This document shows positions 13,047-34,685 of a DNA stretch of 64,000 bases, piece by piece. The DNA is taken from assembly GCF_013368755.1 (NCBI RefSeq), contig NC_049562.1:2666001-2730000 (forward strand), given 5' to 3'. How positions within the stretch are numbered: the first letter of the stretch is position 1; every line of letters begins with the position of its first letter. The stretch comes from Talaromyces rugulosus. Taxonomy: Eukaryota > Ascomycota > Eurotiomycetes > Eurotiales > Trichocomaceae. The translations under genes and the position numbers were made by a program. The notes under the pieces are model-generated. The model was not told the origin of the DNA, did no database searches, and worked only from the letters and a program-made list of their open reading frames with translations.

Positions 13047-15776
13047 ATGAATCACGATGTCACAAAAACGCGGCAACCTCGCAAAAGAGCACGTGTTGCC
13101 TGCTCATGGTGTCATGATCGCAAGATACGATGTGATGTTTCGGTTCAAGGAATTCCCTGCACAAACTGCTTGCTTGACTGTCATGACTGTTTAGTTAACA
13201 CAAAGAGGTATAGAGGGTAAGTGTTTGATTTATAAATCTCCTGAGGTCGGCTCTGATTCAGATCGCAGGTCGATACTACAGGACAGTGCGACTCGGTCCT
13301 CATCGGCCCATAGTAGAGCCTTGACATCAGGGACGAGTGGAAATACAAGCGAACAGAGAATAGTTATTACACCTACTAACCTTGGGGCCCCTGGATTGGC
13401 CGCCACTCAACAACTTTCCAATATATCCAGTTTACCAGCACTTGACAACCATCCTACCTTTCCATGGGAAACTGGTGAGTGGTCTTCATTTCGCGTATTC
13501 TCACGGCTGCTCACTTTCAACTGGAGGTACTGACAATACTCGAAGACAACAGTCTACCATCAACGTTTTCGTTTTCATACCAAGAGCATCCTACCTTTGC
13601 AAGAAATATTCCTTTCTCATCATATGACTTCGTATCCTTGCATGGCCTTAACCGACTACCTCCCGAGGATATCAGCTTCTTAGGGCTGAAAGGGTGCCTT
13701 CAAGTTCCGAATCGATCAAATCTAGATGTGCTTCTTAGGAAATATTTCTTACATGTTCATCCTTGTCTTCCGGTGTTGGATGAAGCAGAAATCTGGCGAA
13801 TGTATGACGGCAACTGTTCTCAAAACAGGTCTCCCCAGAAGCTGTCGCTCTTGGTTCTACAAGCTATACTCTTTGCTAGCAGTGCTGTAGGCCCTCCACA
13901 TAATCAAATTTTCCTGATTACATACTCACAAAAGGCTAACGGAGTAGTTTGTTCCTTTGAAAACACTCACAGACATGGGATTCTCTGATGCAAGGAGTGC
14001 TCGAACCGCCTTGTATCATAGAACAAAGGTAGGAGTTATGCTATCTTCTACTTGCTGAAACGGTGTTAAACTGGTATTACAGCTCTTGTTTGACCTAGAC
14101 GCAGAGACAAATATTTTATCACGTGGCCAAGGAGCCATTCTGTTAACATTCCAGACTACAGCTTCAGACCTCTTTTCTGGAACGCACTGGCTGTCAGCAG
14201 CAATCCAATTGGCTAAATCAGCAGAGGCTGACATCTCTGATCATGAAATGGGAGATAAAACCCCAGAGACTCTAGCCAAGAAAAGACTGTGGTGGTGTAT
14301 CATCCTTCGTGATAGGATACATTCTCTAGCCCTCAGACGCCCAATTCAGCTCCGGCCAGACCAAGCACATATTGGTTGTGACTATCTGCACGAAAAAGAC
14401 ATGGAGGATGAGATTAAACATTCAAAAGTCTACAGTGCGGATGAGAAACGACAATTGGTTCATATTTTCCGCCTCCAGTGCCAATTGGCTGTCAGCATTA
14501 CGGACCTGATCACAATTGTGTATTCTCCCCTTTGGAGCACTCTCCCGGAATTTATTTCAGCAAAAAATGCTATCAGCACCCAAAATGAAATTGACGAAAT
14601 GAAATATTCCCTCCAAAAATGGGCTGAAATAGCCGCGAAGACCCTGGGAACATCCTCCACTTCTGCCAGTGTTATCATGTTTACTAAGTTAACATACATG
14701 TACTATGAGTGAGTTGGGATAGCTGTGATTTGTGTATTCATTCCTCTCAACTCTAACGATTCCTTTCACAGCTCTGCCCGACTTGCAGTTTATCATTATG
14801 AAGCGCTAATATGGGAGACACGATACGAGTACCATTACCCAAGTAGCATACAACCCATCAAGGCCGAAATCGAAGAAGTGATGTTGAGTATGAATGAGAA
14901 TATTGAAGAGTTAATCACTCAAGGGCTGGCATGCTATCTTCCGATCAGCGCGTAAGTCACTCATCAACTCATTGCTTGCAGGTCGTTTTATATGATTTTT
15001 TGAGCTAATTTATTCACTCTTTCTTCCCTAGTATTGCGCATGCCGCCCTTCCACTCGTGCTTAGCGTCCTCGACTCAGAGCTATCCTCAACTAGACTACA
15101 ACTAGTAGCACGGCAACGCCGGCTGCATTTTTATAAACAAATAATGCTGGTCCTTCAATCGCGCTACGAAGCTGCTGATAAGGTTTGTTCGTTCGTCGAC
15201 GATGTTATCACCTATTCTAAATTAAAGCTCGATTTGAACTCTACTGGGATGATCACTGGCTCCGGTGTCGATAATGAGTCTTTACAAAACTTGAATAGGA
15301 GTAACGATATCGCGTCTAGGTCACGCGAACGATATCAAGTACCAGGACGACGAATGAAGACCATTTGCGAGTTTTTCTTTCGCCAGACTCGCTCATATCT
15401 CCGCCTAGCTTTACTTCTAGATCATGCTCTCTCTAGAGGCAAATACCCTCGGCAAGATGATATCGAACGCCTCTGGAAGAGACTACGACTCTCTGACACA
15501 GACAAGTCATCTAGCAGCTTGTGCAACGATCAAACAGAAGCTGCGACAGCGCAAGCTCCCCAACCAATGAACTCGGTAGTAGAGAATGAGAGGGTCCCTC
15601 AGAATCCTAGTTGGTCGAGCCTCCGGCCCTCAGACATTGAATTTTCGGAGACTGGTTGCATCTGCCCTGCTAATATCATGATAAATGACGACCTTCAATC
15701 ACAAACATCACTGGACAATTGTACGTCGGATATTCCATCTATTGTCTCGAACATTTGGGAAGATGTACATATTTGA
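13047..15776 (+). CDS. Zn2Cys6 transcription factor with fungal-specific domain, candidate local regulator
   Basis: Seven exons (13047-13216, 13269-13474, 13546-13886, 13948-14028, 14083-14708, 14772-14951, 15032-15776) give 782 aa. A basic leader RKRAR is followed by a binuclear zinc cluster near residues 19-48: C-x2-C-x6-C-x8-C-x2-C-x6-C (CSWCHDRKIRC...CTNCLLDCHDC). The middle-homology domain includes LFASSAFVPLKTLTDMGFSDAR...LLFDLDAETN and WWCIILRDRIHSLALRRP, the pattern of regulators related to cutinase transcription factor 1 and FarA. Its position directly upstream of a serine hydrolase, a transporter-like gene and a cutinase suggests it controls them. Confidence 0.85.
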
Positions 15777-16811
15777 CATTGAAAATATTCAATCTGCCGA
15801 TCAGAGCCATTCATTAGTGGAGCTGGCTCTCCCATTGTATTTTTGTCATCCTTTACGTACCCTTCATTGAGAATCAATAGTGTATTGTTGCCGAGACAGC
15901 CTACGTCTTGTTCACCCCCGCCTTTCTTTTTCTGCTATTCAAAGGAAATTAATACGAGGCTTGGCATCTCAGATTCTTCTCCAGAATCAAATTAAATTCA
16001 ACCGGAAAGACACCCCCCAAAAAAGGATGGAGCCCATTTACTCCACTCCATAACATATTTCACTAATTCTTGTGGGGCCAGTAGCCGAAATTCCTCGGCA
16101 ACTCAAATTCATTTGGCTTGCCATTCGTCGATCGCGTCACTCTGAAGGTTTCTGTACATCTGTGTACTAACCTAAACTGTAATGGAAAGCGTCATTCTCG
16201 TGAACCATCCATAGACTTTAGCTTGCCAGTGCCGAACCAAGAACCTAGGCAACAGGGGCATCAAACCAGCCTTTTGTATCTGAACCCAGTTGAGCAAACA
16301 AATATAGTTGCTAAGTTACATATATCCTTCTAGTGAATGTTCGTGGTAGTATAAGATCTGTCAGTTTTGTTGAACTTGGGATAAGCACTTGACGTTATAG
16401 TCCTGATGGCAGATAATCGAAGCTCATGTATCCAAGCTATAAGGGCAGTTTTCTTTGCTTTTGCGCCTTCATTACCGTTTCTCTACGCTGTTATGGGCGT
16501 CTAGTCATTATTAAAAAGTTCCGGTGGGATGATTTTCTCTCCATTCTGGCACTCACTATTTTGCAAACCCCGGTGCGAATAGACGAATAAGGAAATTTAA
16601 ATTGAATCAGTCCATATGTGGTCCAAGCTAGAAGCGAGGCAAGGTAGTAATACGGTTTACCGAGGTTTAAAGGGCGGAGCTAAACAAGCTAAATTGTTAT
16701 TTATACTCGGTACGTTGACCGTACACATGTTTACTTTAAGCTACTATCAGACTAATATCATTTCTCAGCTACTAGAGCTAAGATTACTACAAGATCGTTC
16801 CAAATCCAACA
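15777..16811. promoter_or_regulatory. Regulator/hydrolase intergenic region
   Basis: About 1 kb between the regulator stop and the hydrolase start. Contains the palindrome at 16085-16098. A TATA-like TTATTTATAC lies near 16696, about 115 bp before the ATG. A small open frame at 16118-16333 has no domain and is not called. Confidence 0.5.
16085..16098. promoter_or_regulatory. Palindrome CCGA-N6-TCGG, copy 1
   Basis: CCGAAATTCCTCGG, preceded by G and followed by C. One of five near-identical palindromes in the accessory block. It lies about 0.7 kb upstream of the hydrolase start and 0.3 kb after the regulator stop. Confidence 0.6.
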
Positions 16812-18352
16812 ATGGCGTCTTTATCTGCAACTGGCCTCTCTTTAATTGAGACAAAGCTTGATTCCTATACGAAGAAAGAAAATGGAATCCCAGGATTGGT
16901 TTTCACAGCAGTGAATCGAAACGGCGAGCGCTTGATCAATTATGCGTCAGGATTGCGAGGGATAGGAAGTGTTGAATCTATGACCGCAGATTCCACGTTC
17001 TGGATTGCATCATGTACAAAATTGGTCACAAGTGTTGCCGCAATGCAGCTCGTTGAAGCAAAGAAGCTTTCTTTGGATGACGCTGACATCGTGGAAACCA
17101 TTGCACCGGAACTCAAAATAGTTCAAGTGTTAGAGTCGGCGCCAGATGGATCTGTGCACCTGGTTGAGAAGAGGGGAAGGATTACGCTGCGAATGCTTTT
17201 AACTCATACTGGTATGTTAGAGCTCTTTGGATAATGAAGCATGATGCTGATTGTGTCCTTCAGCTGGGTTTGGATACAGTTTCCTGAATCCTAAGTTGAA
17301 GAAATGGAGCGAGCCTATTGGCCTTGCGGAATATTCTTGTTTAAATTATGATATTTTTAGACAACCGCTAGTGAATCATCCTGGTGAGCACTGGGAATAT
17401 GGTGTAAATTTGGATTGGGTTGGCCTCCTGGTTGAGCGAGTGACTCAAATGTCTTTGGACGATTACTTTCGAAAGTTCATCTTTGATCCTCTGGGAATTC
17501 AAAATATTGGCTTCTTTCCCACTTCAGCTATGAAGGAAAAGCTGGTATACCTACACGACCGGTTGTCGGATGGGAAAGTGGATATTCGTCAAGATGGGCA
17601 TCTTTACCGTCGTCCATTAGTTGCCCAAGGGAAGGAGGATATGAAAGATATTGTAAACTCAGGAGGGGCTGGGCTATTCAGTAATCCGGAGGATTTCTGT
17701 GGTATACAATATTGAAATTCCCAAACACCAAATGAACCCATCTGATGTTGACGGTTTTATTAGAGATCATCGCTACCCTTATCAATGATGGCTTCCACCA
17801 TAAAACGGGAAATCGCATTCTTCAGTCGGGTACGGTTGATGGTAAGTCTGCTTGTACTTGCATAAACGCCACGTTATATTCTGACGAGGACTGTCATTCA
17901 GCGATGTTCTCAAACCAGATACCTCAATTCCCTGACTTTGGACGGGGACTGCCCATCTCCTCTCCAAAGCCATATCTCACACATGCCGAAGCAGAGCTAT
18001 ACCCTCAGCCCCATCAGCAGCCACAGGGCTGGGGTCTCTCATTTTTCTATTTAGTCCACTCATCCCCCACCGGTCGGTCGGCTGAGTCGGGATTTTGGAG
18101 TGGCCTCGCTAATCTCATCTGGTGGGTCGACAGGACACACGGTGTTGGGGGCTTGATGGCTAGTCAGATGCTACCTTTTGGTGGTAAGTCATTTAATCTA
18201 CCATGGAATAATCCCTCGAATCGTCCGTAAAGTTTTAACCCATAACAGATCCTGACGTTTGGAGATGTGAATCGGAGGTGGAGCATATTTTGTACCAAAA
18301 TCTGAGAAAGGAGCCGCGAAGCAATAGCATGGCTAGCAAGTACACCTTGTAA
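16812..18352 (+). CDS. Beta-lactamase-fold serine hydrolase / transacylase-like enzyme
   Basis: Five exons (16812-17211, 17264-17701, 17764-17841, 17902-18183, 18249-18352) give 433 aa. The catalytic S-x-x-K motif is S67-C-T-K70 (WIASCTKLVTS). The second motif Tyr is in WEYGVNLDWVG. The late part has HGVGG near GLMASQMLPFG, the place of the third class-C motif. This family holds esterases, class C-like hydrolases and the LovD-type acyltransferases of fungal clusters. No secretion signal or membrane segment is visible, so it is probably cytosolic. The substrate is unknown; context with cutinase suggests ester hydrolysis or transfer. Confidence 0.8.
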
Positions 18353-18499
18353 ATCGTTAAAATGTATTTACAGGACGTCAAGAATACTCTTTTTTTTGTG
18401 GTCGTAAAGGTCCGAGGTTGGAACGTAGATTTCAGGTCTATCTAGTGCGGGTCTGGCTCAGGTCTAGACCTGCCTCATTGGAACCGAGGACACTCCAAG

Positions 18500-18513
18500 C
18501 CGAAGATTTTCGG
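18500..18513. promoter_or_regulatory. Palindrome CCGA-N6-TCGG, copy 2
   Basis: CCGAAGATTTTCGG with flanking G and C, giving a 16-bp dyad except for its centre. It lies about 235 bp upstream of the UNC93-type start codon, in the hydrolase/UNC93 gap. Confidence 0.65.
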
Positions 18514-18547
18514 CTCAGGAGGCTCAAGATTTAGCGCAACAGATACG

Positions 18548-18561
18548 CCGAGAACCTTCGG
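18548..18561. promoter_or_regulatory. Palindrome CCGA-N6-TCGG, copy 3
   Basis: CCGAGAACCTTCGG with flanking G and C. It begins 48 bp (about 4.6 helical turns) after the start of copy 2, in the same gap upstream of the UNC93-type gene. Confidence 0.65.
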
Positions 18562-18747
18562 CTTCTTGCACATGCTGACAATCTGGGGATTCTTTTGTGG
18601 GAGAAAGGCTTTTCGACTCGGAATGCGCATGGAGTTTAAACGGTTCAGGGCCTTTTTAAAAGGTCAACTGTAGCATCTGAGTAGAAAAGCAAAATGCATT
18701 CAGAAATTTCAAAATCAACCTGTTGAAAAACCTACAATCCATTCACC

Positions 18748-20581
18748 ATGCTACTGAAAGAAAAATTACGGCTGAATAAGTATGTACAACAGTTCTAAAC
18801 CATAAGCCAACTGCCGTTTATAATAGCATCTAGCCCATGGACCCAGAATTTTATCTCTGGTGTTATCCTGTTCCTCACTGTTGGCATCTATCTGGCGGTC
18901 ATTGGTATGTTAGAAGCGAACCACTGTTTGCCAAAATTTTAACTTGCAATAGGTCTTGGTGCAGGAGGAGGGAAAGCAAGTTCCGCTCATGTTGCAACCA
19001 TTACGTATACGTCCATATACGCCGTCTTTGCTGTTACCGGCTTCTTTGGTGGCAGTATTATGAACACGCTCGGACCGAGATGGACAATGACAGTTAGTGC
19101 CGTGTTCCGGATTATCTTATATTGATGAAACCTTTTACAGAATCCGGTATTTTACACACTATGGAGTATAATCTAACCAATTGATAGATAGGTTCACTGG
19201 GATATCCCCTCTATATTGCGAGTCTTTGGTACTATGATGTAACCGGGCATGAATGGTTTCCACTTATGGCTGGTGTATTCGGAGGCGCTGGTGCCGGCCT
19301 CCTCTGGACAGTTTCTGGTTTCATGTAAGACTGAAGAACAAAGTTTCCGACGATTTACTACAAGACTAATGATCCTTTGAACATAGACAGTTTGCCTATG
19401 CAGAGGAAAAAGACAAGGGAACATATATTGCATGGCAGCTGTTCCTTCTTGCCCTCGGATCAACAGTCGGCGCACTAGTGGCATTTGGAATCAGTGTTGA
19501 TGAGATCGGTTTAACGGGAGTACCAACTTCTGTATACCTGACATTTGTCATTATTATGTCCTCAGCCATTCTTGTCTCGTAAGTCTAGCCACTGGAACAC
19601 CATCGAATCCTCGTTTAAGACTTGGCATACTAGGGCTACAATGATTGTCTCGCCTCGGAAGATTATCCGAGAAGATGGAACTCATCTTGCGGTCTTCACT
19701 GCGACTGAATTCAGAACCGAACTCAAGGGATGTGTTGAGTTATTGAAAGACTGGTATGTGCTAGACCCTAGGTACAGAGAAGAACAGATATTGATTGGAT
19801 GTACAGGAGGATTGTTGCTCTTATTGTCCCGATGATAGCCACGGAGATGTCATCAGCATTGATTCCCACGCTGAGCGCTTATTCCTTTAACCTCCGCACG
19901 CGATCATTGAATAATGTCCTTTTCTGGGCCATTCAAATACCGGCAACTTTTCTCTATGGGCTTGTGTTAGACAATTCACGGTTTCGTAGACGTATTCGGG
20001 GCTTGACAGCACTCAGTATTGCCCTAGTCATGGTCATTATCAGCTGGTCATTGTCAATCATTATTCAGGTAAAACACCATCTGAAACGTGACCTCCCTTC
20101 TCCTGCTTGGGACTGGACAGACTCTGCCTTTGTGGAATTCAGTATCATGGTCATATTCACCGGAATTTCGTATGCTATTGATCAAATGGTTGTCATGTGG
20201 GTCATTAGCTCTTTCAGTAATGAGCCCAGATTGCTTGCCAGATATGGTGGATTTTTCAAGGGAATGTTGAGCGCAGGTTTGTGCATTGCCTTTGGAATGG
20301 AGTCTGGAAAGGTTTCCTACCTGTATGTTTTCTAACCCTACATCTTGCTACTTTACTTTGTTAACCGGCCAACTAGGAACCAAACAATTACCCAGAGTGT
20401 TTTGATGATCATTTCCTTCCCGATTATGTATTATATTGTCATGAAATGTGTCCTTGATACTAATTACTTTACCGAGGACAATGTTATTCCTCCCCAGCAT
20501 GTGGGCAGTGAGAAAGTCCAAATACTTAATATTGAGGACTCGGAGGGAAAAGCCGACGGTGAAGTAATCAACTTGGACTAG
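18748..20581 (+). CDS. UNC93-type (DUF895-like) membrane transporter
   Basis: Eight exons (18748-18779, 18834-18904, 18953-19092, 19188-19324, 19387-19578, 19634-19753, 19807-20322, 20377-20581) give 470 aa. About eleven or twelve hydrophobic segments, beginning FISGVILFLTVGIYLAVIGLGAGG. Motifs typical of fungal UNC93-like proteins are visible: GLGAGG after helix 1, DGTHLAVF in the central loop, and YSFNLRTRSLNNVLFW after it. Yeast and fungal members are poorly characterised; some UNC93 relatives regulate channels, others resemble MFS permeases. The C-terminus is polar and cytosolic. Two palindromes sit just upstream. Confidence 0.8.
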
Positions 20582-21065
20582 GGCCTGGAGAATGTGAAAA
20601 TACAGAAAGTAGAGAGGGTTTCTGCATTTCCAGGAATGGTGGTCCACTGCTTTTATGACACATAACCTTTGTCGGCTCTTAAAAATATGTGATATTGTTG
20701 TTTGTTAGTTGGAATCAAGGGAAGAATTAACAAAGTGCACCTTACGTGGCATTGAGAAGAAATTATAAGAAGTATGATTTAATTTCCAATATATACTAAA
20801 GACCCGGTGGGATATTAAAATCCAATCCGTGTTTTTCTTCACATGGATAGTGCTGATACTGCTTTCTTTTCCTTAATATTTCCTATACTTAGGGCGGGAG
20901 GAACATGATTAGTCTAGCTGCCCACATATTGAGCTATGAGGCTATCACAAGCAAAAAGGTGCGGGGATAAAGTATCTCAATAAGTAGGCGGAGAAATGAA
21001 AACAGTATAGGCTAAACGTTTCTTCGGCTCACATGAATTTACGGCTTCTGACTCAAACTGGGAGC

Positions 21066-21079
21066 CGAAAGGTTTCGGT
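21066..21079. promoter_or_regulatory. Palindrome CCGA-N6-TCGG, copy 4
   Basis: CCGAAAGGTTTCGG, preceded by G and followed by T. About 670 bp upstream of the cutinase start. Confidence 0.6.
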
Positions 21080-21265
21080 TAGGAGTAGCCTGGTCCTGCG
21101 GCTGATCAGGTGGCATTGGCCCAGCGGGTCATCATACAGGATTTTACCCCAGAATACCGCTTCCTATTTCGTATATTTACCTCCATATTTTTGTAGTGCT
21201 GTTATGTGGGACATGGGGCGCTCTACACAGGCGTGTGAGATACAGTCAACAATATACCGTTACAG

Positions 21266-21279
21266 CCGACAGTGTTCGG
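21266..21279. promoter_or_regulatory. Palindrome CCGA-N6-TCGG, copy 5
   Basis: CCGACAGTGTTCGG, preceded by G and followed by T. Begins exactly 200 bp after copy 4 and about 470 bp upstream of the cutinase start. Confidence 0.6.
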
Positions 21280-21625
21280 TAATCTGAAACACTCTCACAA
21301 GTGGAGATAGTGAGCATTTGAGAGCGAGGTAGTTCTCTCCATTGACCCTGGTCTTTCCTTTGTTACATGGCTTGAGTAGATGTGGGGAGTGAAACATTTT
21401 AATCTCCGATATTAACAGCTTTTCGAACGCAAAGATAAAATAGTCTGACATTTGCACGAAATGTCACCTCGGCTTTTCATTTTTTGAAAGGTGGTTTTGC
21501 CTATCTTTCCCTCTAGCTAAACAAGGTATACCGTGTATAGAAATCAATCTTTGAAGTAAATCCTTTAAGTATTATTCATGTGAATAAAATTGACACACGT
21601 GCCAAAAGAAAGAACCAGGACTACG

Positions 21626-21633
21626 TATATAAA
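21626..21633 (+). promoter_or_regulatory. TATA box of the cutinase gene
   Basis: TATATAAA lies 104 bp before the ATG, a normal fungal distance for a strongly regulated promoter. Confidence 0.6.
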
Positions 21634-21736
21634 TTACTTGCTGAGTCCTCCAGAAGTGTCGGTCTATTCCTGAACTCCTCAAGTCACACTAGAGCGCTCA
21701 ACACATTCACAAAATTATAGAAACTTCTATCATACA

Positions 21737-22701
21737 ATGCTCTTTTTGGTTGAAATATTCTTATTGTCCCTATTTGTGCTTGGGGCTCTTGCGTCTCGTG
21801 TGCCGGAATCAGATATACTTTCTTTCACCAAAAGAAACACTCCTCTTAATGAGTTCCTGAGCATTCTCATAGCCAACACACCCGCTGTCAATGTCTCTCT
21901 CACTGAGAGTACCAGCGTCATCACCACATTGGATAAGCTTCTGGCAATATCAACTGGAGCACAGACAATTTACAATGAATTAGAAGGGTCATGCCAGGAA
22001 TGGACTGTGATTTTTGCTCGCGGAACGGCTGAGCCAGGTAATGTCTGTGGTCCATCGTCTTTTGAGTTTAAAATGTGTGTAATTCAGAACTGATGCTAAT
22101 TCAGGTGGGAGTTCTGGTTGGACCTCCATTGTTCGATGCCCTTGGTGACCAATTTGGTTCCTCGAGCATTGCCATTCAAGGCGTCAATGGTTATTCAGCT
22201 TCGGTAGAAGACTATCTGGCAGGTGGAGATCCCGCTGGAAGTGCCGAAATGTACGTGCTCGTAGAATATACCATATCTTCGTGAGTGTGGGAGATGATTA
22301 TTAATGCTTCATAAACATCAGGGCCAACCAAATCGAAACTGCCAGATCCAAATGTCCAAACACGAAACTAATTGTAGCTGGCTACTCTCAGGGATGTCAG
22401 ATTGTACACAATGCTATTGCCAAGCTTGCAGCTACAACTACAACTTGGATTAGTAGTGTGTTACTTTTTGGGGATCCGGGTATGAGTTTTCTAACTCTTA
22501 AATACAATATAAACGTGCAGCTAATCAGCATTAGATGATGGAGAACTGTTGCCGAATATCCCAGCCTCAAAGACATTTACAGCGTGCCATGATGGAGATG
22601 ACATCTGCAAGAATGGTCTTTTCATCTTGCCCGCTCATCTTACTTACGCAGAGAATGTCACTGAGGCAGCTCAATTTGCGGCAGACGTGGCTTCCGCATG
22701 A
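21737..22701 (+). CDS. Secreted cutinase
   Basis: Four exons (21737-22042, 22105-22250, 22322-22479, 22535-22701) give 258 aa. A signal peptide (MLFLVEIFLLSLFVLGALA) leads into a cutinase domain: CQEWTVIFARGTAEPGN, VGVLVGPPLF, the catalytic-serine motif GYSQG, the aspartate loop HDGDDIC, and a late His in LPAHLTYAEN. The serine, aspartate and histidine triad is complete, and Cys residues match the usual disulfides. Intron 1 needs the weaker donor GTCTGT, chosen because it alone restores PGN-VGVLVG. Cutinases hydrolyse cutin and other aliphatic polyesters outside the cell. Confidence 0.9.
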
Positions 22702-24771
22702 AGTAGGATTGACACCGGAATAATTAATATGATCTAGCCATGATGACAGTTTTTTTATTTCAATTACCATGGGTACGGGTAAATATGTTTTATTCCGGAA
22801 GGGGACAAGGAAAACGTATGTAGAAGGCTTGGGTGGGGATGGACTTTTTCAAGAATTGAAGCAGGACTGTTGTTTGACAACCTACACACTAGAACTTGGA
22901 ATGGAGGGTAGCAGATTTGTTACAAGGAGCCCAGCCACTGTTTACATATGAAGTTAGCACACTGAAATTTGGATATGAAAACTGAACTTGTATATTCGGA
23001 GTCCGGAGGAGCTTGTTATAGCTCTTCATTAGGAATCTGTAATCACGTACGATCAGACTCATCTTTAATATATGTAACTGGAATCTTGCCTAGCCTATCC
23101 GTGAACCGGTTAACCGTCTAGGGGTTGATTGGGCGTGGCACTTGGTTGCCCTGGATACAGTTCAACCTACAGCTTAACTTGTCAGGATGAAAATGTCTCG
23201 GCAGCAATAGCTGCCTCTGTTACTAATAGGATTTTACTCCTGGAAAAGTATCACGACTACGTTGAAAATAACGATCTATACTATATCGCCAGTATTTTGG
23301 ATCCTCGAAGTCAAGGCGAAGTAGTTTTAAACATTACCGGGCAGAGACATAATCATCCCTTGAATTAGGGCGTTCTTGAAGAAAGCATATTCTGCCTCAA
23401 ACCAGTCAGGAGCCTCTACTGCGAGCACAAGATACAAGAGCCCTGAGGATCGATTTTCGGAGACTTTTCAACCTACACAGTGTAATGTAACTGAGTCTGA
23501 TGTCGATCAATATTTTGATACCCCTATCCTTAGTACTGGTTTTGCCATTAGTTAGAGTCAGACCAGATTTATATGAAACTGTTAGAAGGCCAATAGGCTT
23601 GAATTTACATGTATGGCCAAGGTCGCGCAAGGCCATCTTGCTATATTGGTAGTAGAGGTAGATATTGAGAGATTGTTTGGTGGCGGGTAAGATGCATTCG
23701 GGATTCGTCGATTTTCGATTTTCCATGAAAGCTAAGACCCTTGGGACCCTATTGAGATTGAAGATGCTGCTGCATGTTGCAGGTCTAAATAGACTACTAG
23801 TCTGCGTCACGTGTGTGACGGGTCTGGTTAATCGCTCGGGCACAGGCAAGGCTCTGTCGACAGTTTGCATTATTAAAGGCCTGAATTACTCAATGACCTA
23901 TCAAGCTCGCCATGTGACAGAAAAATATACTGATAAGTGATAACGAGATCGCTAGCTTGATGTGCGTTGTGTTGTGTGGGTCTGGTGGAGCCAGCATGAA
24001 AAATCCAAGATCAACATATACTACGAATTTATCCTGGGTTATCATGCATACCGGATGAATTAGTCATTTATGGATATATATAGGATATAGTAGTATAAAA
24101 AAAAACAACTAGGTACAGGTTGTGCTCGACTAACCTGCCGAAATGGGACATCAAAAAATTACTACATATGGAATCCACTTCCCGAACGGGCCTGAAAATT
24201 TCTCCCCGTCGCCGCTGACATTTTGCCGCTGCACGCCAGCAGGTATATAAAAAAAGACTAAGGCATAGCGTGGCCCATTCTTTTCACTTCCGCAGAGATG
24301 TCCGATCTAGTCACGCAAGAACCGGATCCACCGTGCGCCCATCTCTGTCGATAAATTTGCCCTGCTGACCACAAGGCTTTTCGGTCTCGACCCCTCTGCT
24401 GAATAAATTAGGGCTGCTCTAAGGACAGTGGACTCGCGCCTAGAATGCCCATGTAGGGCAGCAATGCACAATCTTCTTATTATTCACCGATTTGGGAGAT
24501 CCTGCCTAGTTCACCGCCAAATTCCATAGCCCTAGGCTCTGGAAAAATGATCCCGGTCCACAGACTTTTTCCCCCTACTATGTAGCAGCTAGCGAAAATA
24601 TCAATGGTGGAGACTTGTCTGGTGTTTTGCTCCCCCACCACCTTCGATTATCTATAAAAGGCTGCATGGATTTCTCGTACGCAACGGAAGGATTCAAGAT
24701 TCGCACACCTCTCAAGCACCTCTCAATTTTCCAGCTTTCGCCAGAACGGCCAGTTTCCCCAGGCCGAAAAC
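22702..24771. other. Intergenic with hAT relic
   Basis: About 2 kb. The middle (23129-23800) is a decayed hAT transposon. The rest carries no gene I can support; the last part is the promoter of the first MFS transporter. Confidence 0.5.
23129..23800 (+). mobile_element. Decayed hAT-family DNA transposon, 3' part of transposase
   Basis: Conceptual translation in broken frames gives hAT signatures in the right order: LEKYHDYVENNDLYYIAS followed by ILDPR, then DVDQYFDTPIL, then a KANRLEF...MAKVA...HLAI...VEVDIERLF segment, the C-terminal dimerisation region. At least three stops interrupt it, including TGT TAG where the family expects two Trp codons. No terminal inverted repeats or target duplication were identified. 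Only the C-terminal third is present. Confidence 0.7.
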
Positions 24772-26743
24772 ATGGGACCATCACTCCAACCCAGCATAAG
24801 CATTGCGGAGGTGCTGCCACAAAATGTGAACAATAATACGCCCGAGTCTGCGGGAGCCAGTCCGACTCGGCCTGGTTTTACGAGATCACAGTCAACTCTA
24901 GTTGGTCAATATATCGATGAAAAAACGCCAAAGGGCAGCATTGAAGTCGGATCTCCCGCAGAGTCTTGCCAGGAAAGCAAGCCGCAAGGAGAAACTCCAG
25001 AGACTGGAAAACTTGCATCATGGAAGGGCGCTCTAATTTTACTAGTAACAGGAGGAGCCATGTTTATGGACAACGTATTCATGACCAGCACAAATATTTC
25101 CCTTGCAGCTATTCAGGAGGAATTCGGCGTCCAGTCATCTGATCTCCAATGGATGATTTCTGCGTATACACTTTCCTTTGGAGGGTTTCTCCTGCTTTCA
25201 GGGGTCATGTCTGATCGGTTCGAGCAACCGTTTACCCCTAGAGCATATGAATATGATCGCTGACTAAACCACACTATAGATTTGGGAGAAAGCCTATGCT
25301 TCTTGTTGGCTTGATTTGGCTTTCCATCTGGACTTTGACGATCGGATTCGGATCCTCGTTTATAGAAATCGCTGTATTCAGAGGGCTGCAGGGTATGGGT
25401 GCTGCTCTGACCATCCCCTCTGCCGTGGGTATAATCAGCTCCTACTTCACTGGCCAAGACCGAACGCGAGCGCTAGGTCTATATGCAGCTTCTGGGGCAG
25501 TGGGATTTACAGGTGGCCTTGTCCTAGGCGGTCTCCTTTCCTCGTCGCTTGGCTGGCGATATATATTCCGCTTGTCGGTCATTGTCAGTACTTTACTAGG
25601 GGTGCTGGGATACATTGTACTTCCGACAAGTGGCGCAAAAATCTACCCCAATTCTCGAATGGATTATTTTGGTGCAACCCTTTCTACCTCGGGACTTATC
25701 CTTCTTGCATTTGTGGTGTCTGGTGGAGGCGTCTATGGCTGGGGATCGCCATTTATCATTGTTCTCCTCGTTTTGGCGATTGCCCTACTCGTGGCATTCG
25801 TGGTATGGGAGAGCAAAGTCAGCAACCCGATCATGCCGTTGTCACTCTGGAAGATCCATAATTTCCCGAGTTTATGGATTGTCGGCTTTAGTGGGTTCCC
25901 CCGTTTTGTTTTGGATAAAAAAAGTTCAATTACTAACTATCAACAGCGGCCAATGGAAGTTTCTCTGCCACTCTGTATTATACAGTTCTCATGGCTCAAC
26001 AAGTCGATAATCTTTCTCCGCTCGAAACGGCTATCCGATTCATTCCTTCAGGAGTGCTTGGTTTCGTGATAACGTTGATGACAACAAGAGCTATTGAGTC
26101 TTTCGATGGAAAACACATTTTAATTACGGCATTGGTTATCTCAGTATTAGCACCAATCCCGAGCTGCCTTTTGACTGCACAGTCTTCGAACTTGTAAGTT
26201 CATCGTCTGCATCTTTTTCAACATGAGATCTAATATCTGAATACAGCTGGGTAAATGTCCTGCCAACTATATTCATCAGTGTGACCGCAATATCAATCGG
26301 CTACATTTCAGCTAGCACTTTTATGTTATTAAGTGCTCCTATGCATGTTAAGAGTCTTTGTGGTGGCATGGTAAGTTCCGCGTCTTTTCTCTATTTTTTT
26401 TTTTTTTTTTTTTTGAGAAATCGAACATACAATAGGCGCACAAAAATGAGCAAAACCGAGTTATATCGCTGACCTTGTCTGGCAGATCAACACCGCATAT
26501 CAAATCGGCGGTGGTGTTTCTCTGGCCATTTGCTCCGCTGTCGTCCAGGCAGTCGATATCGACAAAGGCCATGATGTCGCCCAGCAATATACGACAGGAC
26601 TCTGGTGCACAGCTGGCATCTCTGGTGTTGGCCTTATCGTCGCTGTGTTTTTCTTGAAGAGTGATAGATCTGTTTTCACGCGCGGAGAAGAAAATATCGA
26701 CGTGCAGACAGAAATTTTGAAGAACGACATCAACATGGCTTAA
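24772..26743 (+). CDS. MFS transporter, DHA2-type (14 TMS) drug:H+ antiporter family
   Basis: Five exons (24772-25217, 25280-25890, 25947-26193, 26247-26370, 26486-26743) give 561 aa. A polar N-terminus of about 80 residues precedes the first helix (GALILLVTGGAMFMDNVF). The MFS signature between helices 2 and 3 is visible across the first intron (LSGVMSDRFGRKPMLL), as is the antiporter region GAVGFTGGLVLGGLLSSSLGWRYIF. It probably exports small molecules across the plasma membrane. Intron 4 contains a long T-run. No synthase gene lies nearby to suggest a substrate. Confidence 0.85.
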
Positions 26744-27784: not shown

Positions 27785-29899
27785 ATGGAGAAATCGGTCG
27801 CCGAAACCGCAAGTCCTGTTCCCAATGATCGACCTCATCCGATGAGCGAAGCAGTTGCCTCCCAAGAACCAGAAAATACCCAATCCGACATCCACAATCC
27901 TGCCAACTTAGATCTAGTTGATGACCGTGACGTCCAATATGAAACAGGGATCAGATTGGCTACTATTATATCCTCAGTGACCTTGACTGCCTTTCTTATA
28001 ACACTCGATGGGTCCATAATCGCTACGGTAAACGAAAATAATTGACAGGCACATTTAGTAATTCCTATGTTGACTTTCTTTGAAAGGCAATCCCTAAAAT
28101 CACCAGCCAGTTTCATTTTCTCTTCCGGAAGTTGGGTGGTACGGGAGTGCTTATTTGTTGTCAAGGTGATTTACTCTCGTGAAGCATTGGTTTTCAGACT
28201 GCTTACAATCCACAAGCTCTGCTCTCCAGCCAGTGACAGGCAAGCTGTATGCTCATTTCAGTTTGAAGGTTGGATCGCTGCTCTTAGTCATGAAAACCCT
28301 CTGCACGAGGAACTAACAACATTGTAGTATACTTACATAACATTCCTTGCCCTTTTCGAGTTTGGGTCGTTAATATGTGGTGTTGCAACCTCGTCCAACA
28401 TGTTGATAATAGGGAGAGCAATTGCCGGCATGGGTAGTTCTGGGGTGGGAAACGGGGCACTCACAATATTGTCTGCTTCCATACCTCTTGAAAAGAGAGC
28501 TCGTAAGCCCCGGCTGAGATCCAGAACAACCTTGACTCTATTAACCGTTCTAAAATGCAGTATATTTCAGTATCACGGCATCAGGTATGTTTTACCCTAT
28601 GCTCTTTCCTGATCTCGGCTCTAATTCTTTTTAGTTGGCCAGATGGGTGTTGTACTTGGCCCATTAATTGGAGGCGCATTGACAGAATACACGACCTGGA
28701 GATGGTGTAATATTTGAGGCCCTGGTAATATTGAGGACAATTGCTAATACTCATGCCAGGCTTCTACATTAATCTTCCCATTGGTGGACTAGCAATAGCT
28801 TCTTTAGTTTGGGTAGCAGTGCCCAACACCAGCTCTGAAGGGCCTAAACAAATGAACTTCACCTCTCTATTCCATGAACTCGATATCACAGGCTGCCTTT
28901 TGTTTTCTCCGACCATGGTCATGTTTCTTCTTGCTATTGAATGGGGTGGATCGACTTACCCTTGGAATAGTGCCGTGATTATTGGTCTCTTCTGCGGAGC
29001 TGCTGGTAATCTTGCTCTTTTCTTGATCTGGGAACACAAAAAGGGAGAATCTGCAATGATTCCCTTTCAAATGGTCAAAAAACGCGCGGTTTATTCCGCT
29101 GGTTTATGCGTATTCTTTCTATACGCGAATAACTTGATGACATCGTACTATCTTTCCATATATTTCCAAGGGGTACGAGGCAAGACGCCAACATTGAGTG
29201 GCGTGTATATGCTGCCAGGAATTATCAGTCTGATGGTCTCTGGTATTACAGCTGGGCTCACAGGTATGGTCGATTAACTATCATCCCAGAAAAAGCTAAT
29301 TTCATAAAAGTCACCCGAGTTGGTTACTATTTGCCGTTGGCAGTTATCGGTACAGTCTTAACAGCTGTTGGGTCTGGGTTGATAAGCACATTCACTCAGT
29401 ACACAAAAACTGGCACCTGGATCGGCTATCAAATCATCGGTGGGTTAGGACGAGGTTTGTCGATGCAAATGGTGAGTAATTCCTATATCCAAAACTTAGT
29501 GACTTCACTGACTCTTTGAATCAGCCGCTTGTAGCAGTCCAAAATAACCTACCTGCCTCGCAAATTGCCGTCAGCATGGCCTTTCTTAGTTTCAGTCAAA
29601 ATTTTGGTGGATCACTGTTTCTTTCCTTTGCTGAGACGGCTTTTGGTATCGGTCTTGGGAACGCTCTACCCAGGTATGCACCAGGCGTTCCTGTTGACAA
29701 AATTTCATCTATTGGTGTGTCGGGAATACGATCGATGTTACCACAGAGTGATGTGGAAGGTGTGATTATGGCCTATGCCATTGCTGTCCAGCAGGTTTTC
29801 TATATTGTGGCTGCGACTGCGACTGTTGCTTTTATTTTCAGTTGGGGATTGGGATGGAAGAGCGTTAAGAAAGCTAGGAATACGTCTCCTGAAGCTTGA
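27785..29899 (+). CDS. Second DHA2-type MFS transporter, probably frameshifted
   Basis: Nine exons (27785-28027, 28087-28165, 28217-28268, 28328-28502, 28561-28584, 28635-28706, 28760-29263, 29311-29471, 29525-29899). The family motifs are present: [76 protein letters not shown] and FYINLPIGG. Every junction keeps frame except inside exon 2, where [10 protein letters not shown] and [10 protein letters not shown] are two bases out of register at a T-run (28116-28119). The exon total is 1685 nt, two more than a multiple of three needs (560 aa). It is either a recent pseudogene or an assembly indel. Confidence 0.7.
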
Positions 29900-31178: not shown

Positions 31179-32158
31179 ATGCTTGCAAAGACTCTCCTTG
31201 CTCTTAGCTTCGCCGCTACTGTCTGTTCATTCACCCTTCCAAAGGGACTACCTAATGGAGCCTATCGAGCCTACTATAACGATGCTGGTGAAGAAGTTCA
31301 TGAGCCGGTTGTAGTAAATTCATCTGCTCCTCAGGCCCTGCCGAAGCGTAGCTATTCCCAATCAAAGCGAGATACCATCCAAACATGGTGCGGATGCGCC
31401 TTCCCTATGAATGCTGGCGATACAAATATTGCCAACCAAGGTCTAGCTGACCAAGCCGCTTCGTATCCGGAGGTTGACCCCGGTATGGCCTACTACACAA
31501 TTCAAAATACCGCTGTTGCGTTTGTGTGTAACGTGGATGACAAAACTGCAAACATACCCCAGGATGTTGTTAGCACTGGCTCATGGGATGTCACACAAGC
31601 TTGTGGCCTGTTCTATGCGGGTACGTCCCGTATACAGTGGCCCGAGGCCCTGGATTACGGGTACATGAACTACTTTGATAACCTAGACTTCTGTGGAGCT
31701 GCGGAGGTCGCGAAGGAACATAGTTGCTGTAACCCTGGGAGCCGGACTTACGCAAGCTGTCCCGACAACTGCTGTAATGGTAACTGCGAATTCCTCTAGT
31801 ATGTCTCAGTTGAGCCCTTGTCGAACGCGCTGCCACTAACATGATGTCTAGTTATGACAACAGTACTATTCCTATCCCTGGGGCTGCACCCCTCTTCTAC
31901 CCAGGTTGGGTAATTTACAAGGATGGCCAGTCTATGGGAGGCGGTCAGGATTGCAATGGTTACCCCTGCACCGACGAAAATCAGTTCGAGTTGAAGACAG
32001 AGCTACCATCCTCATTCTTCTTGACTGCCTACTCGGATGGTAGTGGATGTCCCGACAGATGCGACGGGCAATACGAGTCGCAAACGACTTTGACTGGAAG
32101 CATCTATAGGAATGGTTTGTCGACAGAGTGTTCGTGTAGAATTTACTTCCAGTGTTAA
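31179..32158 (+). CDS. Cysteine-rich secreted protein, function unknown
   Basis: Two exons (31179-31798, 31852-32158; 53-nt intron with CACTAAC branch site) give 308 aa. The signal peptide MLAKTLLALSFAATVCS is followed by a pro-like segment with dibasic sites (LPKR near residue 54, QSKR near 62) that a Kex2-type protease could cut. The mature part is rich in Cys (WCGCAF, HSCC, SCPDNCCNGNCEF, DCNGYPC, GCPDRCDG, CSCRIYFQC), so it should be disulfide-rich. No membrane anchor. I recognise no enzyme motif. It could be a cell-wall or effector-like protein; the TATA box suggests conditional expression. Confidence 0.8.
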
Positions 32159-33004: not shown

Positions 33005-34685
33005 CTATATCTTCGAAGTACGATGATGCTTTGGACCTCTAGTAATTTTTCGTGCATAGGGATGCAAACGACTAGCAGGAACAAGATGGTCTACGTCTCC
33101 GGTGTTGACAAGCTCGGGGCTTGCTTCGCTTATACTGGTAATACCGCTGTTCTTCATCGCCGTTTCAAACTCTTCGCGTATGACTAAACCGGGAAGAAAA
33201 AAGGGTAGTCAATATCAAGGTGTCTCAAAGGGCGATCTGATAACAACAAGAAGAAGGGGAACGGGTACTTACTGTCGATCAAGTGCTCAACTCCTTCTTG
33301 GCCGTAGTTGGTAGCGAAAAGCATGCTGCGGCCCATTCCAACAGCCGTAGCTCCAAGAGCAATGGCTTTGAGAACATCAGTGCCACGTCGAATTCCACTG
33401 TCAACGTAGATTTCCATCTTGTCGAAAATCTCTGGGCATCGCCGGTGGAGCTCAAGTAAGGTGATGATAGATGGAGGACTGGTATCAAGATTGCGGCCGC
33501 CATGATTACTCAAGAGGAGACCATCCACTCCAGCTTCCATGGCCAAGATCGCATCATCTGCTGACATGACACCCTTCAAGCACACCGGCAAATGGGTATG
33601 TTTCCGAACAAAGGCGATGTCATCCCACGTCAACCCGGGGTCGATGTTGCCAGCCATCAATCGGCCGATGCCGCCTCCTTTGGTGTCGTTCTTTGCTTTC
33701 ACGTTGGACATGGGAACCCCCATGTCCTCATCTGCTTTGACCCGTTCGTCTGCTTCTCGTTTGCCCGGCCACGCTGCATCAACCGTGATGTGAATAGCTT
33801 TGAATTGTGGTAGCGAGGATATTTGGTGGAGAAGTGCTGCCGACTTCTCCCGGTTCGGATTGACGTATAGCTGGAAGAAAAAGCTGCCGTTTGGTGCTGC
33901 TTCAACTAACTCTTCCACGGAGAAAGAAGAGTTATTAGAAACCTAAAAGTAAATTTGTTAGACACACAAAGTTAATAATATGTGAGACAATTACATACTC
34001 CCTGCATAATACCCTTACGCTCGCAGGCCCTGGCAATAGCGCACTCGCCATCTGGATGAATCATCCTCGCCATTGCTGCCGGGCTCACAAATAAAGGGAA
34101 ACTAAGATCCGTGCCTTGGACAGTCGTGCGAGTATCGATACTCCGAACGTTCCTCATAACTCGTGGGCGAAACCATATTCGGTCAAAACATGATTTGTTT
34201 GCATCTCGTGTGATCAAGTCTGTCGCAGCACTGGAGTAAAATGCCCAGGTTTTCTTGCTCACTGTTTTTGATGCCACCGTTTCAAAGTCATGAGCGTTGA
34301 TTAATGTCGTCAATGGCGGTTTCTCGTTGTCCAGCATTACACGGGCGTTTTCTGTTGGCGGTTCCTTGAGCCATTCATTATTAATGGTGGACTGGTCTAG
34401 GACGCCTTTGAACTGGTCCTGCCGTAGATTTTTCTTAATCACAGATGGCGAATGCGCTTCATTGTAAGCTTTAGAAGCGTCACGCCCTGCGTACTTTAGG
34501 ATAACTAGACTTGACATTAGCTTCAATCCCTCAATGGGCGAAGAGGACTAACTCGCAGAGCCCCCAGGATGCTCTTGGTGGAATTCGGTCAGATCCCAAA
34601 CTTGGCCGTCAACGACTATCCAAATGTCTGAAGGGGAATTGTGTTTTTCTATCTCTTTGACAGAGAGTAGCCTTCCCTCCGCCAT
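33005..34685 (-). CDS. Cytochrome b5-FMN 2-hydroxyacid dehydrogenase (flavocytochrome b2 family)
   Basis: Exons 34553-34685, 33999-34504, 33273-33942 and 33005-33183 give 495 aa. Residues 1-75 form a cytochrome b5 heme domain (WIVVDGQVWDLTEFHQEHPGGSA). The FMN-dependent alpha-hydroxyacid dehydrogenase barrel follows: FYSSAATDLITRDANK, SPAAMARMIHPDGE, HITVDAAWPGKREADER, LKGVMSADDAILA, the catalytic-His motif SNHGGRNLD, and YVDSGIRRGTDVLKAIALGATAVGMGR. Yeast Cyb2 oxidises L-lactate and passes electrons to cytochrome c. Here the chain starts directly at the heme domain without a mitochondrial presequence and ends SKI, a possible peroxisomal signal. The gene is divergent from the TatD gene. Confidence 0.9.

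Follow-up and report, generated by a model that had tools for sequence, protein, structure and literature searches.

Five everted CCGA-N6-TCGG dyads, probable operators of an adjacent zinc-cluster regulator, in a cutinase-containing gene block of Talaromyces rugulosus

The sites of UaY and Ppr1 have the form TCGG-N6-CCGA, with the two half-sites facing inward. Everted sites, in which the half-sites face outward, are known for the Zn2Cys6 family as well; LeuB, for instance, is reported to read CCG-N4-CGG (PMC6221358). Regulators of the CTF/Far type (CTF1alpha, CTF1beta, FarA and FarB) are reported to bind the hexamer CCTCGG before cutinase genes (PMC5068947), and CTF1 and Far proteins reportedly act through it at cutinase and fatty-acid genes alike (PMC5068947, PMC4117967). 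A regulator of the Ctf1B type has been described from the genus studied here: TctA of Talaromyces cellulolyticus, a ctf1B homolog, is reported to control cellulase and xylanase production (PMC5468973). Here we describe five copies of the dyad CCGA-N6-TCGG in a 64-kb window of the Talaromyces rugulosus genome (the window being the whole stretch of DNA that was analysed). They lie in three consecutive intergenic gaps that follow the gene of a Zn2Cys6 regulator and precede, in turn, the genes for a serine hydrolase, an UNC93/MFS-type carrier and a cutinase. The five dyads form a set that is non-random and specific to this block; they are probably operators, and the adjacent regulator is the likely protein to read these predicted sites.

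The dyad occurs exactly five times in the window, with starts at 16085, 18500, 18548, 21065 and 21266, where 0.70 copies would be expected by chance, and none of 100 shuffles of the window reached five. All copies fall within 16085-21279, in the gaps 15777-16811, 18353-18747 and 20582-21736. Site 1 (16085..16098; GCCGAAATTCCTCGGC with flanks) lies 309 bp after the regulator stop codon and 713 bp before the hydrolase ATG. Site 2 (18500..18513; GCCGAAGATTTTCGGC) and site 3 (18548..18561; GCCGAGAACCTTCGGC) precede the ATG of the UNC93-type gene by 234 and 186 bp, respectively; they are 48 bp apart, and site 3 is in part an inverted copy of site 2. Site 4 (21065..21078; GCCGAAAGGTTTCGGT) and site 5 (21266..21279; GCCGACAGTGTTCGGT) stand 658 and 457 bp upstream of the cutinase ATG, which places them 484 and 685 bp downstream of the UNC93 stop codon. 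All five copies had been listed in a preliminary description of this DNA, and all of them exist, the fourth being displaced there by one base (21066 for 21065). The flank rule given with them, G before and C or T after, holds for the whole set (G in five of five, C in three and T in two), and the limit to three consecutive gaps, which had been drawn by eye, stands after a scan of the full 64 kb that showed no further copy. Measured against GCCGAAN4TTCGGC, sites 1 to 5 carry 1, 0, 1, 1 and 2 mismatches at the 12 fixed positions, and nowhere else in the window are there fewer than three; it follows, in agreement with the earlier account, that no copy stands in front of the regulator gene, the genes of the MFS type or that of the secreted-looking protein.

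Read outward, all ten half-sites contain TCGG, the next base being C in eight and T in two, and each of the two preceding positions holds a pyrimidine in nine of ten. The half-site can be written as YYTCGGC, and the CGG triplets point outward with eight bases between them, giving an everted CCG-N8-CGG; AGCCGA is found in one orientation of all five sites. The CCGA/TCGG core is perfect throughout, and the sixth pair is mismatched in sites 1 (A/C) and 5 (C/T). The preliminary description had spoken of CGG half-sites in a dyad, and the triplets are indeed present, but the everted geometry was missing from it. UaY and Ppr1 share with this locus the TCGG half-site and the N6 between the tetramers, with the half-sites inward there and outward here; inward TCGG-N6-CCGA sites number zero in the 64-kb window. 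Leu3 and LeuB resemble it in their everted CGG half-sites and in having a Zn2Cys6 reader (predicted here), but differ in a spacing of 4 against 8 and, for LeuB, in reported targets among amino-acid and iron genes across the genome (PMC6221358). CCG-N4-CGG does not occur in 15777-23000. A literature search for CCGAN6TCGG, CCGAAN4TTCGG and CCG-N8-CGG returned no match, in a corpus that leaves out most subscription literature and hence does not prove absence; the nearest everted site found was the CCG-N4-CGG of LeuB. The prediction belongs to a well-known kind; what is unusual is the geometry of the site, CCG-N8-CGG not being described in the literature searched.

The spacing is sharply defined. 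Among outward TCGG pairs in 15777-23000, examined at spacings 0-24, spacing 6 accounts for five and no other spacing for more than one; the remainder of the window contains none at spacing 6. The motif was first picked by eye; as a control, all 256 four-base words were paired with their reverse complements at 21 spacings (0-20). Five word-spacing pairs reached at least five copies in 5.2 kb of the window, namely AAAA at four spacings and CCGA-N6-TCGG, and five copies in 5.2 kb were not reached by any word with at least two G/C bases in 30 third-order Markov sequences.

On the scale of the whole genome (35,758,560 bases in 6 contigs), the core CCGA-N6-TCGG is present at 375 sites and the flanked form GCCGA-N6-TCGGY at 91 (32 with C and 59 with T). 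Among these 91, the five sites of the window are the sole group of at least three within 5.2 kb, and one other pair, on contig C1, lies 2.9 kb apart. When 91 sites were placed at random, none of 20,000 runs put five within 5,195 bp; with 375 sites, a fraction of 0.00015 of the runs did. The G and Y flanks were derived from these same five sites, so the 375-site figure is the fairer of the two. Positions were listed for 50 of the 375 core sites, and the uniqueness of the cluster thus applies to the 91-site form alone. Genome-wide there is no enrichment of the motif (375 sites vs 613 for a backwards control). Counts of the G/C-flanked form are 32 at N6, 79 at N5 and 45 at N7, and inspection of 50 of the 79 N5 sites and all 45 N7 sites revealed no group of three within 5 kb. 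The preliminary description had named equal frequency in random intergenic DNA of this genome as a finding that would speak against it; the genome-wide regular-expression scan did not bear this out, the 91-site form clustering in this block only.

The regulator gene (13047..15776, plus strand) is modelled with seven exons (13047-13216, 13269-13474, 13546-13886, 13948-14028, 14083-14708, 14772-14951 and 15032-15776, all on the plus strand) and encodes 782 aa. The product matches Fungal_trans (PF04082) at 44.3 bits (cut-off 23), and its zinc cluster is spaced CX2CX6C-X8-CX2CX6C (C19-SW-C22-HDRKIR-C29-DVSVQGIP-C38-TN-C41-LLDCHD-C48); no coiled coil is obvious by eye after the cluster. In an alignment with eight homologs chosen from 45, the six cysteines and Arg25, Lys26 and Arg28 are invariant. 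Lys26 aligns with a lysine of LAC9 and of Leu3, although in weak matches (E 0.13 and 0.72), and its column is presumably that of Gal4 Lys18. The Gal4 residue is reported to contact the guanines of CGG (PMC5559640). Judged by its sequence, the predicted DNA-binding domain of the regulator retains the Lys and Arg residues that are found in clusters reading CGG. The best homolog of the regulator comes from T. proteolyticus (87% identity over 84%), with a record that begins after the zinc cluster, and one of the 45 homologs, from Fusarium (30% identity over 70%), bears the source-given label cutinase transcription factor 1 beta. The likeness to CTF1alpha/CTF1beta and FarA/FarB extends to the pairing of Zn2Cys6 and Fungal_trans domains in a regulator whose gene shares a block with a cutinase gene, and to the half-site, YYTCGG including CCTCGG as a special case. 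The difference lies in an everted dyad with fixed N6, as opposed to a single hexamer, and in the concentration of the sites in one gene block; the regulator is at most a candidate member of the CTF1/Far clade.

We consider it probable, if some way from secure, that the five palindromes are operators of this cluster-specific Zn2Cys6 activator and that hydrolase, carrier and cutinase are under its control. In such a scheme, a homodimer of the regulator would bind the two outward YYTCGGC half-sites, with the CGG triplets 8 bp apart (CCG-N8-CGG), and, acting as an activator rather than a repressor, would turn on the three downstream genes. The cutinase, presumably secreted, would cleave an extracellular polyester, the UNC93/MFS-type carrier may move the cleavage product, and the beta-lactamase-fold esterase, apparently intracellular, would cleave the imported ester. 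The adjacent regulator is the best explanation for the sites because the 91-site form has no other cluster in the genome, because the sites lie in the gaps upstream of the genes and because Lys and Arg are conserved in the DNA-binding domain. The same three observations favour the link between dyads and neighbouring regulator that had been proposed at the outset, where the outward orientation of the half-sites went unstated.

The three putative target genes are all on the plus strand. The first (16812..18352) encodes a beta-lactamase-fold serine hydrolase (PF00144, 137.6 bits) with the SxxK motif SCTK, which is probably of the esterase or transesterase type; its N-terminus, read by eye, has no evident signal peptide, and its best homolog, described as beta-lactamase-like, comes from T. 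proteolyticus (90% over 97%). The second (18748..20581) is modelled as a 470-aa transporter of the UNC93/MFS type (MFS_1 39 bits, UNC-93 34.8 bits) with uncertain N-terminal exons, starts at 18748 and 18837 both being possible. The third (21737..22701) encodes a cutinase of 258 aa (PF01083, 175.4 bits) with the nucleophile motif GYSQG and an N-terminus that is hydrophobic and, by eye, signal-peptide-like; the model and TRUGW13939_03419 of Talaromyces rugulosus are identical at every one of the 258 residues.

The T. proteolyticus homologs of regulator and hydrolase each lie on a contig of 2,174,644 bases, which suggests that their linkage, not their adjacency, is conserved in that species. The best cutinase homologs outside T. 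rugulosus, among the best 120 of 370, are Penicillium proteins with 61-68% identity, and the species' own paralog on contig C4 is 59% identical over the longest piece; the cutinase gene may have been gained or may be an old paralog. Among these 120, no close cutinase was seen in the T. proteolyticus cluster, which could reflect loss there, gain here or lack of annotation. A bolder scenario, which we find possible but doubtful, is that a Ctf1-like regulator shifted from single CCTCGG hexamers to an everted dyad of strict spacing (CCG-N8-CGG), thereby acquiring a near-private address, and that a cutinase of separate origin was recruited by gaining two sites; a separate origin is suggested by the fact that the best outside matches are in Penicillium and not in sister Talaromyces.

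How private this address is can be gauged from copies elsewhere in the genome. Of the 20 CCGAAN4TTCGG sites that lie outside the block, eight (L005-L012) were read with their neighbourhoods; each neighbourhood holds one exact site only, no wider regulon emerges from these eight surroundings, and the sites in L006, L009 and L011 fall within long open frames. Perfect copies of GCCGAAN4TTCGGC outside the block number two in the whole genome. The first (L005:3994) lies 3' of a frame for an HhH-GPD repair protein; relative to shorter, overlapping frames, of which one was scanned against Pfam without a match, it is at the 5' end. The second (L007:4098) is located 3' to a frame for an alpha/beta hydrolase and 5' to an overlapping, shorter one; the same region codes for a Fungal_trans protein, a zinc dehydrogenase and an RraA-like protein as well. 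A further site, L008:4052, sits between divergent frames for an NmrA-like protein and a homocysteine S-methyltransferase. Exact dyads are absent from eight regions around regulator paralogs (L039-L046, 79 kb in total, among the 50 matching places listed) and from nine loci around cutinase and UNC93 paralogs; copies with two mismatches of 12 number six in those 79 kb and are spread over five of the eight regulator-paralog regions. Eleven of the T-flanked sites in the genome are identical copies of GCCGATGACGATCGGT (for example at C1:5473909, C2:3009401, C5:3550719 and C6:16589), and their sequence suggests a dispersed repeat family that happens to carry the motif.

Several observations weigh against the assignment of the five sites to the neighbouring activator. 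Two of the sites are more than 650 bp away from the ATG that they precede (713 bp for site 1 and 658 bp for site 4), and the 64-kb mismatch scan found no dyad before the regulator gene itself, so that no autoregulation is visible. The Zn_clus match of the regulator, at 20.1 bits, is 0.9 below the Pfam cut-off of 21, and the zinc-cluster assignment accordingly rests on the cysteines. An excess of Far-type hexamers in these gaps leaves room for the action of a Far protein. The perfect copy beside the alpha/beta hydrolase, in a region with a Fungal_trans protein, means that the address is not fully exclusive, and the six two-mismatch copies in 79 kb make site 5 taken alone unremarkable except for its intact core; the evidential weight falls on the set of five and on their intact cores. 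Finally, the only T. proteolyticus cutinase among 120 of the 370 homologs listed is 62% identical and lies on a different contig. With no close cutinase among the listed homologs from that species, the regulon should not be assumed to be conserved as a whole.

The alternative that survives best, albeit as an unlikely one, is that the dyads are bound by a regulator encoded elsewhere, likeliest of the FarA/FarB/CTF type that serves lipid and cutin genes, and that the neighbouring regulator is incidental. It draws its strength from CCTCGG hexamers in the same three gaps. One lies on the plus strand inside the right half of site 1 (16093..16098), and one on the minus strand (16660..16665, CCGAGG on the plus strand) 146 bp before the hydrolase ATG; two more on the minus strand, likewise read as CCGAGG on the plus strand, precede the UNC93-type ATG by 330 bp (18412..18417) and 258 bp (18484..18489), and the last, on the plus strand (21467..21472), is 264 bp before the cutinase ATG. 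These five, with at least one in each gap, compare with 1.1-1.3 expected, an excess of about four-fold that is modest and post hoc (P 0.006 against the rest of the window and 0.011 against 16 other genome loci), and they match the hexamer that, according to published work (PMC5068947, PMC4117967), mediates the action of CTF/Far proteins on cutinase genes. However, CCTCGG is present in just one of the five dyads, and a genome-wide regulator should have many promoter sites, whereas the dyad is unenriched and its 91-site form clusters here only. For the cutinase paralog on C4 (L024), moreover, the 1.5 kb upstream of the first matched exon contain no exact dyad.

The enrichment of single CCTCGG/CCGAGG hexamers in these gaps could also be accommodated by the neighbouring regulator itself, if it were a repressor, or if it bound half-sites mainly as monomers and the dyad were a high-affinity arrangement. 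We give this little credence. Monomer binding of the AlcR type is known, as reported in PMC5559640, and the apparent lack of a coiled coil would be in keeping with it, but the strict N6 spacing in five of five sites points to a paired arrangement.

It is about as improbable, or marginally more so, that the palindromes work as RNA hairpins in long untranslated regions (UTRs), for stability or termination, and not as DNA operators. The three genes share the plus strand, and all five 45-nt stretches around the sites fold better than the shuffle mean (z -1.4 to -3.1). The folding is nevertheless modest for four of the five (z -1.4 to -2.3), and two of the sites (1 and 5) have a mismatch at the sixth pair, in contrast to the perfect CCGA/TCGG core. 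Given their distances from the UNC93 stop codon (484 and 685 bp) and from the cutinase ATG (658 and 457 bp), sites 4 and 5 are probably outside short UTRs. A hairpin also leaves unexplained why fixed CGG half-sites should stand beside a Zn2Cys6 gene.

Chance or the local duplication of one segment is the least credible origin of the cluster: sites 2 and 3 are partly inverted copies (18 nt, 89%), an inverted likeness of 77% over 30 nt relates site 2 to site 4, and three direct repeats of 14-16 nt (D2, D5 and D6) join the first and third gaps, but none of these three includes a site, the repeat search gave only short two-copy repeats, no relation is apparent by eye between the flanks of the remaining sites, and random placement hardly ever produced five sites in 5.2 kb.

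If operators of the adjacent activator are indeed what the five dyads are, one of many unstudied zinc-cluster regulators would have a predicted site and a predicted target set, obtained from sequence alone. A cutinase would then have a switch of its own in addition to the general regulators of fatty-acid genes, and the outward CCG-N8-CGG spacing would join the everted sites known for the Zn2Cys6 family. Cutinases are used in polyester breakdown, so an inducer of the system would be of practical use. As the regulator adjoins its presumed sites, the idea can be checked with one protein and one DNA probe.

Further genes of the block lie to the right of the cutinase gene. Two MFS-type transporter genes are found on the plus strand at 25257-26069 and 28735-29899, the second being TRI12-like in 28735-29277, and no copy of the dyad with two or fewer mismatches occurs near either. 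They are followed on the same strand by a frame for a cysteine-rich protein, secreted-looking by eye (31179-31799), for which Pfam gave no match at E values up to 0.01. At the right edge lies a gene for an FMN-dependent dehydrogenase on the minus strand (33184-34547), whose product also shows a sub-threshold match to cytochrome b5 (18.7 bits, cut-off 23.7).

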